A DNA stretch of 45,694 nt from a virus, in IMG/VR virus record IMGVR_UViG_3300046777_000473, positions 1 to 45,694 of that record; one strand, written 5' to 3'. A program made the translations under genes and the position numbers. The notes beneath the pieces are model-generated. The model searched no databases and was not told the origin of the DNA. It worked only from the letters and a program-made list of their open reading frames with translations. This document shows positions 1 to 45,694 of this stretch, piece by piece; position 1 is the stretch's first letter; each line of letters begins with the position of its first letter.

Positions 1-127
1 CAGAACATCCTAGGGTATTCAAGATTATGCCTAAAGGTTTCTTTGTGGTGAGGAGAGGTTCCAAGCAGGCTGTCTATAGAACCTATAGTTATGATGAAGC
101 TGTTGTTGTGGCTAATGAGTGGTTAAA
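1..127. repeat. Terminal direct repeat, left copy
   Basis: Bases 1-127 are identical to 45568-45694. The repeat lies inside a coding sequence, and joining the two ends gives one uninterrupted 185-codon gene. A length of exactly 127 matches a k-mer overlap commonly left by assemblers on circular contigs, so I read it as an assembly overlap rather than a physical terminal repeat. The sequence alone cannot exclude a real short terminal redundancy. Confidence 0.95.
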
Positions 128-13351: not shown

Positions 13352-13435
13352 CTTAAAAAATATTTTTTCTAAACTCTTGACAAGTACAGGCAACATCCTA
13401 TTTAAAGTATTGTCTGTACCCCCCTTAATATATAC
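13352..13435 (+). promoter_or_regulatory. Promoter P2 / conserved 59-bp block, sense copy
   Basis: A palindromic A/T run (AAAAAATATTTTTT, 13355-13368) precedes TTGACA at 13377-13382. The 59 bases from there to 13435 match 38485-38543 at 54 positions, including the final 33. The -10 is unclear (ATTTAA at 13400-13405 with a 17-bp spacer). The block ends in GTACCCCCCTTAATATATAC. Unlike the other promoters it has no GANTC. Its position suggests a second late promoter for tail genes. Confidence 0.6.
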
Positions 13436-13457
13436 ATCATACTAGGACATTCCCGAC

Positions 13458-22700: not shown

Positions 22701-23145
22701 ACATTACTGCTGGTGAGAAAGCATGTAGCTTCCACTTTAGTTTGTTGTGGTAGTCAATACGATCTTCAATAAAATTGATGATACCAAAGTCATCATAGAG
22801 CATTGCTTGATCATGTGCCTCATTAAGAGCCTTGAGGATATTCATGTTATCATCCTCTAGCTGCTTGATCATAACAAGTGCAGGCAGTAGGGTAATGCTT
22901 GCATCTTGTACAAGGGTGATACGAGCAAAGTCTGTCAGACCACCAGAAGGAAAGTCTCCTAGTGTACGGATATGCTCTGCATAATCATCTACACTTTCCC
23001 ATACCTCTTGATACACATCACCGAAGAAACCATGAAACTGAGCAAAGTCAGGACCAGTTACGTTCCAATGATAGTTATGGGCTTTGAGGTAAAAGGTAAA
23101 CACTGTGGCCAATGCTACATTAAGGGCTTCACCTAGTGGGGTCAT
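22699..23145 (-). CDS. dps: Dps-like ferritin
   Basis: 148 residues, full length for the family. The signature HWNVTGPDFAQFH and VDDYAEHIRTLG gives ferroxidase-site residues H26, H38, D53 and E57. The acidic residue normally four after the second His is Gly here (G42, next to D43). Dps dodecamers oxidise iron with peroxide and shield DNA. A phage copy at the end of the replication operon could protect DNA from Fenton damage. Its ATG overlaps the previous stop by 4 nt. Confidence 0.85.
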   Translation of the reverse strand: MTPLGEALNVALATVFTFYLKAHNYHWNVTGPDFAQFHGFFGDVYQEVWESVDDYAEHIRTLGDFPSGGLTDFARITLVQDASITLLPALVMIKQLEDDNMNILKALNEAHDQAMLYDDFGIINFIEDRIDYHNKLKWKLHAFSPAVM

Positions 23146-28445: not shown

Positions 28446-28729
28446 GTATTCTCTTTCAAGAAAGTAGGAAGTTCATCAACCACATTGTCAACTTCCATAA
28501 TAAAAGGAGTGATATTCTGCTTGAAGTGCTTGACAACCTCATAGGCATCATCAAATGTCCAGAAGGTTAGTTCCTCTACCTCAAAGCCACCATAAGCATT
28601 CTCTACTTGGCACAGTAGTACCCAACAATCATCATCTTCATCCCAGTCAGGAATGTCAGAAGAATGAAATGGCCCTTCTACAATACCATAAATTACTACG
28701 TTGTGGTCATAGTCGATTACGTTAGCCAT
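28442..28729 (-). CDS. Hypothetical acidic protein (95 aa)
   Basis: Begins MANVIDYDHNVVIYGIVEG and has PDWDEDDDCWVLLCQVEN. Very acidic, mixed alpha/beta. It overlaps endonuclease I by 13 nt at the start and the phosphoesterase by 4 nt at the end. I do not recognise it. Confidence 0.6.
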   Translation of the reverse strand: MANVIDYDHNVVIYGIVEGPFHSSDIPDWDEDDDCWVLLCQVENAYGGFEVEELTFWTFDDAYEVVKHFKQNITPFIMEVDNVVDELPTFLKENT

Positions 28730-29103
28730 TCTTTAGGAACCTCTTTGTCTGCATAAAGGAAGCCATGTTGATTACACCAGTCAGCATAGGTTGTCTTAGA
28801 GCCTTTGTTTATCTTACTCTTAGAATTAGTAAAGACAAACCGAATATCAAGATCAGGATGCTGCTTTTTTACCAGAAGATGCTTTTTCCTATCAGAAGCC
28901 ACAAACCTACCCTTAGTCTCAATAATGATGCCATTTGGCAACTTGAAGTCTGGTGTGTATGTCTTGTCTTCTTCTAGTCTATACCTGATCTTGAATTTCT
29001 CATACTCGGCTTCTACACCACATTCTTTTAGTTGTGTGGCAATCTTTACTTCTAGACCTGACCTATAACCATGTTTTATACCGTTTGAAATTTTAGTGGA
29101 CAT
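28717..29103 (-). CDS. T7 endonuclease I-like Holliday junction resolvase
   Basis: 128 residues. Catalytic residues match T7 gp3 in spacing: E18 (SGLE), D52 (YTPDF), E62 and K64 (IETKG), followed by DIRFVFTNSKSKINKGSKTT and a YADWCNQHGF segment. It resolves branched replication intermediates before packaging and may degrade host DNA. It overlaps the DpdA-like gene by 28 nt. Confidence 0.9.
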   Translation of the reverse strand: MSTKISNGIKHGYRSGLEVKIATQLKECGVEAEYEKFKIRYRLEEDKTYTPDFKLPNGIIIETKGRFVASDRKKHLLVKKQHPDLDIRFVFTNSKSKINKGSKTTYADWCNQHGFLYADKEVPKEWLT

Positions 29104-29738
29104 TGCACTGAATCAATCCTTTCTGCCATTTCTTTAGTATCTTTCTTTATCTTATGACTTCCATGATTTCTGGCAATATTGGTTGAATCAGCAGAAGCAA
29201 AAGGCCACCTATGACCACAAACTTTTAAACCTCGCATCATATGGACCCTAGGTCTACTACCTGTCTTGTCTATGGCTTCCCAAGCCTCGTCTGCTCTATT
29301 TTCCCACTCTTTTGATAAAACCTTCCAATAAGTCCCACTGGAACCAAAACAGATATTCGGATACTTATCAACCAGTTCGACTAACCAAGAAATAGGCAAA
29401 TCCATATGCCAGACAGCGTATGAAAGATGTTTTGGATAAGGCCATGCCTTTAGAAAGTCTTTTTGCTGCTCCACTGTGCCACCAATAATGTCTGGGATAA
29501 CTGCCCAATTTGCCCCATACAATTTATCATCAAGCCATTTAATATAACCTTCTGTATCAAAGAGTTTACCTTTAGTATAAGCAGTAAAGGCCCCATTATC
29601 CCACATGATACTTTGTGCATTATCAATACACCATTTTGCGTCCTGTGGGTGAGCGTAGGAGACACAGAAGTGCCTCCCTTTTAGTTGCTCTAAACAAGGG
29701 CTTCTTGGAGTGATTGGAGTGCCATGATAATGGATCAT
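29076..29738 (-). CDS. dpdA: DpdA-like DNA transglycosylase (7-deazaguanine insertion)
   Basis: 220 residues from ATG 29738, which forms ATGA with the transporter stop. It follows the tRNA-guanine transglycosylase fold: MWDNGAF (D47) in place of the TGT DSGGF, IPDII (D83), VHMMRG (166-170) and ADSTNIARNHG, with D184 as the likely nucleophile. Phage DpdA proteins exchange guanine in DNA for preQ0/preQ1-type bases and so block restriction. At 220 residues it is a short phage form. No zinc site is seen. Assignment is by motif reading. Confidence 0.75.
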   Translation of the reverse strand: MIHYHGTPITPRSPCLEQLKGRHFCVSYAHPQDAKWCIDNAQSIMWDNGAFTAYTKGKLFDTEGYIKWLDDKLYGANWAVIPDIIGGTVEQQKDFLKAWPYPKHLSYAVWHMDLPISWLVELVDKYPNICFGSSGTYWKVLSKEWENRADEAWEAIDKTGSRPRVHMMRGLKVCGHRWPFASADSTNIARNHGSHKIKKDTKEMAERIDSVQCPLKFQTV

Positions 29739-30253
29739 TTTTTGTACTTGTAATACAACCACAACCCCACAGCTACAGCAGCACTTGCATACAGCTTTGC
29801 TACAGTGTTGCCAACCGAAAGTTCCAAGGAACCAAAAGCAAGGTAGACAAAAAGTACACTGTCAACAAATGACCCTACAACACCAGAGGCAAGAACCGCC
29901 AACTCTTTCCCCCTTTTACGAAGTGGCGTATAGACTGTTAGATCAAGTGTTTCTGCTACAAAATAAGCTGCGGCTGATGCCATCGCAATAAAAGGGTTTG
30001 CAAAAATAAATGACAAAACTGTACCAAAAACAACAGCCCCGAAAGACCACTTCCAATCAGTCAATTCTTGAAGCCAATCCCTTAGAACAAGGGCAAGCCC
30101 TACAAACAACACCCCACTTGGGGCCATTAGACTGAAACCTACAGGGATCAAGCAAGGTCCGTCTGGAATACATTCCGTACCAACGTTGCCAATAAACCAA
30201 TTTGCAAGTGGGATCATTGCTGAGAAAAGCAAGAAAACTAAATATTTAAGCAT
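29735..30253 (-). CDS. yhhQ: VUT family (YhhQ-like) queuosine-precursor transporter
   Basis: 172 residues from ATG 30253 (TGATG overlap with the exonuclease stop); an ATG at 30283 would add ten residues of unlikely sequence. Five or six membrane helices, LVLRDWLQELTDW, ASAAAYFVAETLDLTVY and FVDSVLFVYLAF match the VUT/COG1738 family that imports preQ0/preQ1. The gene is coupled directly to dpdA. No precursor biosynthesis genes (QueC/D/E, FolE) are seen, so base precursor would come from outside or the host. Confidence 0.8.
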   Translation of the reverse strand: MLKYLVFLLFSAMIPLANWFIGNVGTECIPDGPCLIPVGFSLMAPSGVLFVGLALVLRDWLQELTDWKWSFGAVVFGTVLSFIFANPFIAMASAAAYFVAETLDLTVYTPLRKRGKELAVLASGVVGSFVDSVLFVYLAFGSLELSVGNTVAKLYASAAVAVGLWLYYKYKK

Positions 30254-30945
30254 CAGTATTTTTCCATTGTGGGGGGTTGCCATGTCTCATTCTCTTTACG
30301 ACGAAGATACACCAGACGAGCAGTCTTTGTCAAATCCTCTAGATTTCCCTCGTAAGCCTTAAGGACAGCCTTGAACATTTCCTCGTCTGTGGTAAGTCCT
30401 TTAAGGATTTTTTCAGCAGTCTTAGGGCCACAACCTTGTAGACCCTTGATGTTGTCCACCGTATCTCCTGTCAGCACTTGCTTCCAGAAGTTATACTTGG
30501 CACCCAGTTCATCAATCAAGAGCCAAGACTTCTTCTTGTAATCATAGATCATACAAGGAAGTTGCTTAAAGTCTTTGTCCACTGATACAATGATACTATC
30601 TTCATAGCCATTCTCTGTAACAGCAATTGCAATAGCATCATCAGCTTCTTGTCCCTCAGTAACAGTAGCGCCCCATTGGTCGATCAGACGTTGACGGGCC
30701 AGAGAATGAGTAGCTGGCTTACTGCCTTTCCTGTTTGCCTTGTAGGCCTCAGATACCTCATTACGGAAGTTACCCTTACCTGTCAGGAAGGTGCTGTATT
30801 CAAAGTCTTTACCTTCTGCACTGCACTCCCACAAAATGTCTTCCATGATGCTGTCAACTTTAGCTACAACACCTGAGACTGTGTTACCCTCTTTACTATA
30901 GGCTGCGTGGTAGGCAATAACATCTGCATCAATGAACAGTCTCAT
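30253..30945 (-). CDS. 5'-3' exonuclease (T7 gp6/FEN-like)
   Basis: 230 residues from ATG 30945, chosen because AGAAAG lies 9 nt upstream; ATG 30954 would sit on that site. Acidic metal ligands in MRLFIDAD, EGQEADDAIA and SVDKDF are followed by the helix-3-turn-helix TVDNIKGLQGCGPKTAEKIL. It removes RNA primers and degrades host DNA for reuse. TGATG overlap with the transporter gene. Confidence 0.85.
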   Translation of the reverse strand: MRLFIDADVIAYHAAYSKEGNTVSGVVAKVDSIMEDILWECSAEGKDFEYSTFLTGKGNFRNEVSEAYKANRKGSKPATHSLARQRLIDQWGATVTEGQEADDAIAIAVTENGYEDSIIVSVDKDFKQLPCMIYDYKKKSWLLIDELGAKYNFWKQVLTGDTVDNIKGLQGCGPKTAEKILKGLTTDEEMFKAVLKAYEGNLEDLTKTARLVYLRRKENETWQPPTMEKY

Positions 30946-31252
30946 TATTATCATCTTTCTTTGATAGGTTATCTAGGAAATCGCTATAACCATCAAACTT
31001 GACAGCAAACCTGTCAGACCAATACGCTTGATTGTCAACGATTTTCAAGAACAATACATGCCTAAATCCATCCTCTCTTTTATCTCGTTGGATAGAGATA
31101 TAATCAGGTGTAGAGGCTTTTGCTGCAAGAGCGTTGATAGTCCTTAGTTGTTCCTTGCTAAGAACAATAGAGGTAACGTTTACTTTCCATTGAAAGAAGG
31201 ATACTGCCTGATAGATATATCCTAGAGTTCTGTTTTTAACGTAACTAAACAT
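30929..31252 (-). CDS. Hypothetical protein (107 aa)
   Basis: Starts MFSYVKNRTLGYIYQAVSFF; the central part IVLSKEQLRTINALAAKAST could be a helical DNA-binding segment. It overlaps ThyX by 8 nt at its start and the exonuclease at its end. No family recognised. Confidence 0.55.
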   Translation of the reverse strand: MFSYVKNRTLGYIYQAVSFFQWKVNVTSIVLSKEQLRTINALAAKASTPDYISIQRDKREDGFRHVLFLKIVDNQAYWSDRFAVKFDGYSDFLDNLSKKDDNNETVH

Positions 31253-38435: not shown

Positions 38436-38484
38436 TCTTATGTGGCATTATTACCACACTGATAACTATCTTTCCTTTAGGGTC

Positions 38485-38543
38485 TTGACAAGTTCATGCA
38501 ACAACCCATCTAAAGTATTGTCTGTACCCCCCTTAATATATAC
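38485..38543 (+). repeat. Conserved 59-bp promoter-like block, antisense copy
   Basis: TTGACAAGTTCATGCAACA opens a block matching 13377-13435 at 54 of 59 positions and ending in the same GTACCCCCCTTAATATATAC. No plus-strand gene follows; it points against the minus-strand early genes at 38550-42130. It could be an antisense promoter or a protein-binding site. No A/T run precedes it, unlike the copy at 13377. Confidence 0.7.
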
Positions 38544-38549
38544 TCCCTA

Positions 38550-38657
38550 CTAGTCTTCATTATCCTCTAGATCATCTAATAGTTCTTCATAATCTTGAAT
38601 GTTAAAGTAGTCCTTCCAGTCTTCTCCTAGATATTCTGTCATTCTATACTCAATCAT
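38550..38657 (-). CDS. Small acidic protein (35 aa)
   Basis: From ATG 38657 (or ATG 38642) it reads MTEYLGEDWKDYFNIQDYEE and ends LLDDLEDNED. Very acidic, DNA-mimic-like in charge only. It overlaps the preceding gene's stop by 8 nt and ends 7 nt before the 59-bp block. Confidence 0.5.
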   Translation of the reverse strand: MIEYRMTEYLGEDWKDYFNIQDYEELLDDLEDNED

Positions 38658-40474: not shown

Positions 40475-41281
40475 TTAGTAATCCTCTGCTTCTTTTCGAG
40501 TCAGGAAAAAGTGGATGCCATGGGTACACTCCACACGAATGTCGGGATCATACTTGTTAGGGTATACAGTCTGGCCTACCTCATACCGGGTTTTGCCACA
40601 GTGAATAGACTCTCCTTGCCCTTCAATAACGACAGCATACTCAGCCCGACACTTACGACCTACAAGTGTTGCAGTTCTTTCAGCTTCTGCGGGGATAAGC
40701 AAGGTCACAATTCCTCCCAAAACTTTCTTGAATCCATAGAGAGGATAGCCCTTTGGTGTAATTTGAAAATGTGGCAGGTTAGCCCCTTCAAGGCTAGCCC
40801 CTTCAAGGCTAGCCCCTTTAAGGTTAGCCACTTCAAGGTTAGCCCCTTTAAGGTTAGCCCCTTCAAGGTCAGCCCCATAAAGGTTAGCCCCTTCAAGGTT
40901 AGCCCCTTCAAGGTTAGCCCCATAAAGGTTAGCCCCATAAAGGACAGCCCCTTCAAGGTTAGTCTCTTTAAGGTTAGCCCCATAAAGGTTAGCCCCTTTA
41001 TGGTAAGCCCCTTTAAGGTTAGCCCCATAAAGGTTAGCCCCTTTAAGGTTAGCCACTTCAAGGTTAGCCCCTTTAAGGTTAGTCTCTTTAAGGTTAGCCC
41101 CTTTAAGGTAAGCCCCATAAAGGTTAGCCCCTTTAAGGTTAGCCCCTTTAAGGTTAGCCCCTTCAAGGTCAGCCCCTTTAAGGTTAGCCACTTCAAGGTT
41201 AGCCCCTTTAAGGTTAGCCCCATAAAGGTTAGCCTCTTCAAGGTTAGTACAAGGCTCAATCTTGTATCCGTTGACTTCCAT
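40475..41281 (-). CDS. Pentapeptide-repeat protein with C-terminal DUF5758-like domain
   Basis: 268 residues. From about 11 to 170, roughly thirty A(N/D)LxG pentapeptides form a right-handed beta helix with the size and charge of DNA, as in Qnr/MfpA-type DNA mimics. Residues 180-268 ([20 protein letters not shown] ... [14 protein letters not shown]) are DUF5758-like. At DNA level the repeats are a nearly perfect 15-bp tandem array. Targets could be gyrase or a host DNA-binding defence protein; both are speculation. Confidence 0.85.
40780..41245. repeat. 15-bp tandem repeat array encoding the pentapeptides
   Basis: About 31 units of a 15-bp repeat. The plus strand reads AAGGTTAGCCCCTTT with variants CCTTCA and CCATAA in the last part. 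Unit number is likely to vary by slippage, so other isolates may carry a different count. Confidence 0.9.
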
Positions 41282-41307
41282 TATTCTTCTCCTTCGTTGT
41301 GAGTATG

Positions 41308-41336
41308 TGTATAAGTGATTCTTTCCTGATTGTCAA
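41308..41336 (-). promoter_or_regulatory. Minus-strand promoter before the pentapeptide gene
   Basis: On the minus strand TTGACA (41336-41331), 17 bp, TATACA (41313-41308), with GAATC at 41321-41317 close to the -10. Confidence 0.8.
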
Positions 41337-41339
41337 GTA

Positions 41340-41822
41340 TTATTTGAACCACTCAGGAACCTCTCGGTTAGTCCACACCATACTAAACTTGTCTTTCTTG
41401 GTCTTGTAGTAGTTCCTGTATGATTGGACAGGATCACCCTTTACGATACACTCAGGTTCATGCTGCATGGCAAGAGCAAAAGGTGTACACTCTTTATCAG
41501 AGATACCAGAGGGAAACCTGTTAAGAACACCAGCCAGCTTGGTTTCACACAGATGTACTTTACCATACCTGTTAGTGTACTCTTCACATAGAGCAAGGAA
41601 GTGATCAAAGAGCCATTTGTAGTTAGCTTTGGACTGTCTGGCCCATACACTGCAAGGATGATTCTTATGTGTAGGTTTGTACATGATAGCATCAGCACTA
41701 CCACAAAGATGATGTGCAGTAGAAAGCATCTGTGCAGTCTCAAGGATCATCTTGACTACGTGCTTGTCACACTGCATCTGTGCAGCTTCTACAGGGTTGT
41801 CAGACAGTACAAAGATGTTCAT
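41340..41822 (-). CDS. Conserved phage protein (160 aa), sometimes called pyrimidine dimer glycosylase-like
   Basis: From ATG 41822 (ATGA overlap with the deaminase stop). MNIFVLSDNPVEAAQMQCDK, then HVVKMILETAQMLSTAHH, later NHPCSVWARQSKANYKWLF: a family found in many phages, some annotated as pyrimidine-dimer DNA glycosylase; I cannot confirm that activity. His/Cys-rich. Confidence 0.7.
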   Translation of the reverse strand: MNIFVLSDNPVEAAQMQCDKHVVKMILETAQMLSTAHHLCGSADAIMYKPTHKNHPCSVWARQSKANYKWLFDHFLALCEEYTNRYGKVHLCETKLAGVLNRFPSGISDKECTPFALAMQHEPECIVKGDPVQSYRNYYKTKKDKFSMVWTNREVPEWFK

Positions 41823-42130
41823 GTGTGTACTACTTCCTTGATGTTTGTGGCAGCTATTGCACTCTGGCATACAGGGCAAGGTTTAGCTGATCTTGTGTTG
41901 CCTTCATTGTCATAACGTGTTACCACGATTCGATGTGCTTTGTCAAGTTGTTTGCACCTTGTGATAGCATGTATTTCAGCATGTAGGTAAATCTTTTCAG
42001 GAAGACCTACACACTCTGCATGATGTGACTGTAAAGGATGTGTTTTGTGGTAGCTGTTCTGACCAATAGATAGCACTCGACCCCGCTTGTCATATATGAT
42101 AGCAGTAATCTCATACCTCTTTTTAGTCAT
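41819..42130 (-). CDS. dCMP/cytidine deaminase-like zinc enzyme
   Basis: 103 residues. Zinc site HAE (50-52) and PCPVC (84-88) with the catalytic Glu 52: the CMP/dCMP deaminase core. The protein is short and lacks the long C terminus of classical dCMP deaminases. It may supply dUMP for ThyX. It is the first gene after a strong promoter; GGGGAG lies 6 nt before ATG. Confidence 0.75.
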   Translation of the reverse strand: MTKKRYEITAIIYDKRGRVLSIGQNSYHKTHPLQSHHAECVGLPEKIYLHAEIHAITRCKQLDKAHRIVVTRYDNEGNTRSAKPCPVCQSAIAATNIKEVVHT

Positions 42131-45215: not shown

Positions 45216-45694
45216 ATGAAGAGTATGGAAGATAACACCTATAATGGATTTACTAGACTTGACCTAGAACATAGGTTTATCTATGATCCTATCGGTGGTA
45301 CTTTCTTTAATAAGAAGAATGGTAGACCATTGACATCTACTAGAGAAGGTAGATTAGTACTTGTGGTTAGAGACAATGACCGTATTGTATCATTGAGTGC
45401 TGCTAAGGTAGCTTTGATGATGATGGATGAGAAAGTATTGACTAAAGATGAGACTATTAGGTTTATTGATGGTAATCCTCTCAATCTGTCATACAAGAAC
45501 ATAGGTGTTATGCCTAAGTCTAAGACTGTAAAGGTTAGATCAGTAGAACAACCATATTCTGTGGCCACAGAACATCCTAGGGTATTCAAGATTATGCCTA
45601 AAGGTTTCTTTGTGGTGAGGAGAGGTTCCAAGCAGGCTGTCTATAGAACCTATAGTTATGATGAAGCTGTTGTTGTGGCTAATGAGTGGTTAAA
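45216..45694 (+). CDS. Degenerate HNH/AP2-like DNA-binding protein (junction-spanning, 185 aa)
   Basis: Starts at ATG 45216 after AAAGGAAGATGTA and continues at base 128 of the window to a stop at 204-206. FIYDPIGGTFFNKKNGRPLT, then DETIRFIDGNPLNLSYKNIG, follows the layout of phage HNH endonucleases, but the expected catalytic His residues are absent (FIDGN where HxDGN is usual). An AP2-like C terminus follows. It may be a DNA-binding regulator derived from a homing endonuclease. Confidence 0.6.
   Translation, partial: MKSMEDNTYNGFTRLDLEHRFIYDPIGGTFFNKKNGRPLTSTREGRLVLVVRDNDRIVSLSAAKVALMMMDEKVLTKDETIRFIDGNPLNLSYKNIGVMPKSKTVKVRSVEQPYSVATEHPRVFKIMPKGFFVVRRGSKQAVYRTYSYDEAVVVANEWL
45568..45694. 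repeat. Terminal direct repeat, right copy
   Basis: Identical to bases 1-127; see the left copy. Confidence 0.95.

Follow-up and report, generated by a model that had tools for sequence, protein, structure and literature searches.

The window that we analysed, a stretch of 45,694 bases that amounts to a complete marine phage genome as judged by its terminal repeats, carries a short DpdA, i.e., a putative 7-deazaguanine DNA transglycosylase, directly preceded by a membrane transporter of the Vut_1/YhhQ superfamily. We put the probability at roughly 70% that these two genes work as a DNA modification cassette fed by salvage. While the type of enzyme is already known, the pair constitutes a recurrent phage module that was not previously recognised as such. 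Because identical 127-nt repeats are found at both ends, the genome is considered complete, and the absence of deazaguanine genes from it is therefore meaningful. The features that matter here are listed below by position.

1..127, no strand: left copy of the terminal direct repeat (127 nt, 100% identical to the right copy)
28717..29103, minus strand: endonuclease I, downstream edge of the insertion site (Pfam Phage_endo_I, E 4e-55)
29076..29738, minus strand: short DpdA of 220 aa, putative 7-deazaguanine DNA transglycosylase (phrog_887, profile matches to MED16, 7-11 and 9g, AlphaFold2 model, viral fold matches)
29735..29738, minus strand: ATGA overlap between the transporter stop and the DpdA start (read from the sequence)
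29735..30253 (ATG at 30253), minus strand: Vut_1/YhhQ-superfamily membrane transporter of 172 aa, putative 7-deazaguanine importer (Pfam Vut_1, phrog_4899, TIGR00697 below cut-off)
30253..30954, minus strand: 5'-3' exonuclease, upstream edge of the insertion site (Pfam 5_3_exonuc_N)
45568..45694, no strand: right copy of the terminal direct repeat (127 nt, 100% identical to the left copy)

Both genes of the pair were confirmed on the minus strand where the original prediction had placed them. Besides the ATGA shared by the two genes, the exonuclease/transporter junction is a TGATG overlap and the DpdA/endonuclease I junction an overlap of 28 nt, while the start of DpdA is better set at ATG 29738 (MIHYHGTPI..., matching its relatives) than at GTG 29762, as given by the ORF finder. 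The replication genes of the window show ~70% DNA identity to those of Roseobacter phages (CRP-6, CRP-4 and others), a kinship that suggests a host among Rhodobacteraceae. In CRP-6, the exonuclease and endonuclease I genes abut, with no pair between them, and the same holds for the closest pair-less relatives (e.g., L098-L110, L112, L113). The Vut_1-DpdA pair lies between these two genes in the window and in L019, where it is equally bare; the closest relative, L018 (79% identity), has Vut_1, a protein of ~85 aa, DpdA and endonuclease I, and in L020, L022 and L026 the pair is placed after a phosphoesterase gene.

Elsewhere in the window, a pentapeptide-repeat protein of 268 aa (40478-41281, minus strand), possibly a DNA mimic, has Qnr/MfpA-type NCBIfam matches, and about thirty 15-nt repeats occupy the region of its gene (40686-41352). 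It is adjoined by a pyrimidine-dimer DNA glycosylase-like protein (41343-41879, minus strand; Pfam Pyr_excise, E 7e-9). A ferritin/Dps-like phage protein is encoded at 22702-23145 on the minus strand (Pfam Ferritin, E 6e-20, along with DpsA-type NCBIfam matches). Finally, two intergenic copies of 86 nt (13360-13445 and 38468-38553, 83% identical), which contain TTGACA and TAATATATAC, are perhaps shared promoters.

That the downstream gene encodes a DpdA-like transglycosylase, as originally proposed, is borne out by profile comparisons. The protein matches phrog_887 (“queuine tRNA-ribosyltransferase” in PHROGs) with an E-value of 9e-40, and a profile built from it and 40 IMG/VR relatives, from which the DpdA of MED16, 7-11 and 9g were all left out, scores 190 bits against MED16, 148 bits against 7-11 and, more distantly, 36 bits against 9g. 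On these matches, we assign the window DpdA to the short group of 7-11 and MED16. Its small size had been regarded as unusual, which does not stand: the DpdA of 7-11 and MED16, two phages whose DNA carries dADG and which have no preQ0 genes, count 234 and 261 aa, so that a length of ~220–260 aa without biosynthesis genes is normal in this group and not an oddity, whereas the DpdA of 9g is longer (317 aa). In the alignment of the 41 sequences, D47 and D83 never vary and D184 hardly does; D47 (DNGAF) and D184 (ADST) align with DSGAF and CDSS of the 9g DpdA and form a putative active site, the catalytic role of which rests on published TGT work.

The AlphaFold2 model of DpdA (pLDDT 90) displays a TIM-barrel fold resembling that of DpdA/TGT. 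Structure prediction against known DpdA had been suggested as a check, and in a library of viral folds the significant matches are mostly annotated as queuine tRNA-ribosyltransferases or are unnamed phage proteins, whereas the PDB fold search returned TIM barrels in general, at weak E-values, and placed TGT 1q63 no higher than rank 35. For such a predicted model, we consider that the PDB comparison alone is no proof of TGT kinship and that the viral library is more telling. Neither the window DpdA nor its profile gave a meaningful sequence match in the PDB, and when IMG/VR was scanned with this one sequence, 0 relatives were recovered, an alignment being needed as query.

The upstream gene passes the cut-off of Pfam Vut_1 (E 4e-10, 40.7 bits for a cut-off of 27.2) and matches phrog_4899 in PHROGs. 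Together with the ATGA overlap, this upholds the claim of a VUT/YhhQ-like transporter translationally coupled to DpdA. The preQ0 transporter YhhQ (COG1738 in E. coli) belongs to the Vut_1 superfamily as well, but the window protein is shorter (172 aa) and falls below the NCBIfam cut-offs for both the queuosine precursor transporter (TIGR00697: E 1e-7, 31.9 bits for a cut-off of 50.95) and YhhQ itself (PRK11212: 27.4 bits for a cut-off of 252), which leaves its substrate putative. It probably imports the replacement base for DpdA.

Profile searches for QueC, QueD/PTPS, FolE, radical SAM (QueE) and QueF, each with positive controls in known genomes, were negative in the window. Hence, the prediction that no QueC/D/E, FolE or other deazaguanine gene would be present holds for a complete genome, and so does its corollary, i.e., that the precursor comes from the host or from scavenging, since a DpdA and a coupled transporter are found where biosynthesis genes are not. 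The window thus combines DpdA, a complete genome and no preQ0/G+ pathway gene, like the third group of Hutinet et al. (PMC6884629), which in 2019 was the largest (76 dpdA phages without biosynthesis genes) and for which the source of the base was left open. In contrast, phage 9g, in the dG+ system of which DpdA inserts 7-deazaguanine into DNA, has its own precursor genes (Gat-QueC, FolE, QueD and QueE; annotated as GTP cyclohydrolase, QueD and QueE). QueC is also missing in 41 of the 42 related phage records tested, all with a short DpdA; the sole carrier, L039 (considered over its whole record), has Vut_1 too.

According to the proposed mechanism, Vut_1 would bring a 7-deazaguanine, in the form of preQ0 or possibly preQ1, into the cell during infection, thereby topping up the stock of the host. 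Once the phage DNA has been replicated, DpdA would cut out selected guanines by way of a covalent intermediate on Asp and put the imported base in their place. Because the window phage has no recognised base-reworking enzyme, the expected product is dPreQ0 or else dADG, the base seen in MED16 and 7-11, in either case probably at a low density. The substrate, the direction of transport, DNA as the target and the benefit to the phage are what we infer here. In MED16 and 7-11, dADG was detected by LC-MS without any biosynthesis gene in the phage (PMC8306585, PMC6884629); unlike the window, they have no Vut_1 adjoining dpdA. MED16 argues against assuming a broad protection from restriction, since only ~0.13% of its G is modified to dADG and its DNA is cut by most of the enzymes tested at G-containing sites (PMC8306585). 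Against the cassette reading itself speaks Mycobacterium phage Orion, which has a DpdA but unmodified DNA (quoted in PMC8306585). Our claim is accordingly worded as “works like a DpdA salvage cassette” and not as “protects this phage”.

The two-gene form had also been deemed unusual, but a Vut_1 gene lies beside DpdA in 47 of the 80 related IMG/VR loci (same strand, within 600 nt), i.e., in 39 of 67 clusters once the DpdA sequences are grouped at 90% identity, whereas none of the 51 control loci, which were retrieved through endonuclease I, has one (Fisher p ~4e-13). These 80 loci are the DpdA-profile matches that lie closest to the query, and since Vut_1 is less frequent among the more distant ones, the figures are no rate for all DpdA. 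Vut_1 is upstream of DpdA in 30 loci and downstream in 17, and comes in two sequence subtypes. The pair further occurs in the cultured phages Pam5, RHph_N3_2, RHph_X2_30, Tbat1_6, PEAT2, ECO111 5-P and AB3P2. In four of these (Pectobacterium phage PEAT2, Rhizobium phage RHph_N3_2, Pseudanabaena phage Pam5 and Flyfo siphovirus Tbat1_6), the two genes are adjacent or one small gene apart, on the same strand and sometimes overlapping; compared to the window, their order differs and sequence identity is 28–51%, and in their records the two genes are not presented as one system. YhhQ homologues had been noted in phages, yet without correlation with any group (Hutinet et al. 2019, PMC6884629).

Could the transporter carry some other vitamin or base, unrelated to DpdA, and owe its position to sites where accessory genes gather? 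The Vut_1 superfamily is broad, the NCBIfam equivalog cut-offs were missed, and Vut_1 genes are also found in phages devoid of this DpdA. However, an adjacency that recurs across clusters in both orders and with both subtypes, and never in the controls, is hardly expected from such gathering. Moreover, a QueD-like gene, which flanks DpdA in 10 of the 80 loci, never does so together with Vut_1 (9 clusters with QueD-like and 39 with Vut_1, overlap 0, p 1.6e-4), as if the two partners were mutually exclusive. We thus regard an unrelated cargo as unlikely.

Slightly less likely still is that DpdA acts on tRNA, the pair serving a queuosine-type tRNA modification during infection instead of modifying DNA. 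The kinship of DpdA and TGT in the literature and the name given to the family in PHROGs speak for a tRNA target, as does the presence of a tRNA TGT in each of the 30 bacterial genomes with related dpdA genes; conversely, with TGT already there, these hosts would have the activity at hand. The window DpdA has no match to the Pfam TGT profile up to an E-value of 1, and its comparison with 30 TGTs using hhalign was insignificant, probably because both alignments are shallow. In addition, the two tRNAs of the window (Trp-CCA and Thr-TGT) are without G34, the base that queuosine replaces, and the relatives tested by LC-MS have the modified base in their DNA.

The same 30 genomes were used to look at preQ0 synthesis in the hosts. 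QueC is missing in three of the seven in which dpdA has a Vut_1 partner, compared to none of the 23 others (p 0.009), and these three hosts are also without QueD, yet have a tRNA TGT. PreQ0 synthesis is possible in the remaining four of the seven; in two Vut_1 hosts, a lower-scoring QueC was at one point taken as atypical, which we rejected given that QueD adjoins it, so that both are counted as preQ0-makers. Such a contrast is in keeping with a transporter of most use in salvaging hosts, but it may reflect host lineage, since QueC is recognisable in only about 43–47 of 151 genomes sampled from the family of one such host. Among 385 genomes from the class of one host, no related dpdA gene was found beyond the known one. 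As a separate observation, a weak second TGT match, QueC, QueD and Vut_1 are clustered on one contig at G051:C24:472700-479173, perhaps as a bacterial island for deazaguanine DNA modification.

The Vut_1 and dpdA genes are both under strong purifying selection, with pN of 0.13–0.19 for pS of 0.70–0.81 against L018 and L019. Like the two families, their coupling and the missing biosynthesis genes, the recurrent linkage and this selection are read from the sequences themselves. Varied insertion sites combined with pN far below pS therefore make the pair a unit that moves but is functional. That it is a decaying or inert passenger is very improbable: although close relatives lack the pair and it sits at varying positions among related phages, the frames are intact, the putative active-site residues conserved, the fold confident and both genes constrained.

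The salvage cassette of the window has counterparts in which the short DpdA keeps other company. QueD-like genes accompany it in L059, L073, L078, L081, L082, L085, L088, L091 and L006, with no other preQ0 gene among those tested; when four of these partners were compared to Pfam PTPS, two scored above the cut-off and two just below. A second family, of ~85 aa, lies beside DpdA in 23 of the 80 loci, 15 of which also have Vut_1. Its members (e.g., L018 603-845, L094 5210-5455 and about 30 other loci) mostly correspond to phrog_37496, of unknown function in PHROGs, and have an invariant Cys-Pro, two Glu and one His. The AlphaFold2 model of such a protein (pLDDT 95) matches the QueF-Like archaeosine synthase 5jyx (TM 0.82, E 8e-5), and on this predicted structure phrog_37496 is likely a base-reworking partner of DpdA. 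Neither the QueD-like nor the ~85-aa family is found in the window. Work from 2023 reportedly dealt with further phage 7-deazaguanines, DpdA subfamilies and proposed accessory enzymes, and may already have described part of this picture of QueD-like and QueF-Like-fold partners.

Taken together, the short phage DpdAs could belong to a modular salvage system, in which Vut_1 or a QueD-like protein secures the precursor, an optional QueF-Like-fold protein reworks it and DpdA installs it, a generalisation that we hold tentatively, at a little under even odds. If it is true, the window represents the barest version, an importer and a DpdA, and a phage so equipped could modify its DNA even in hosts unable to make preQ0. 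The survey of partners also suggests a function for phrog_37496, a family of unknown function. The recurrence of importer and enzyme as a translationally coupled operon, to the exclusion of the QueD-like partner, makes the question of the precursor directly testable, and a salvage cassette of this kind would tie the chemistry of phage DNA to nutrient salvage.
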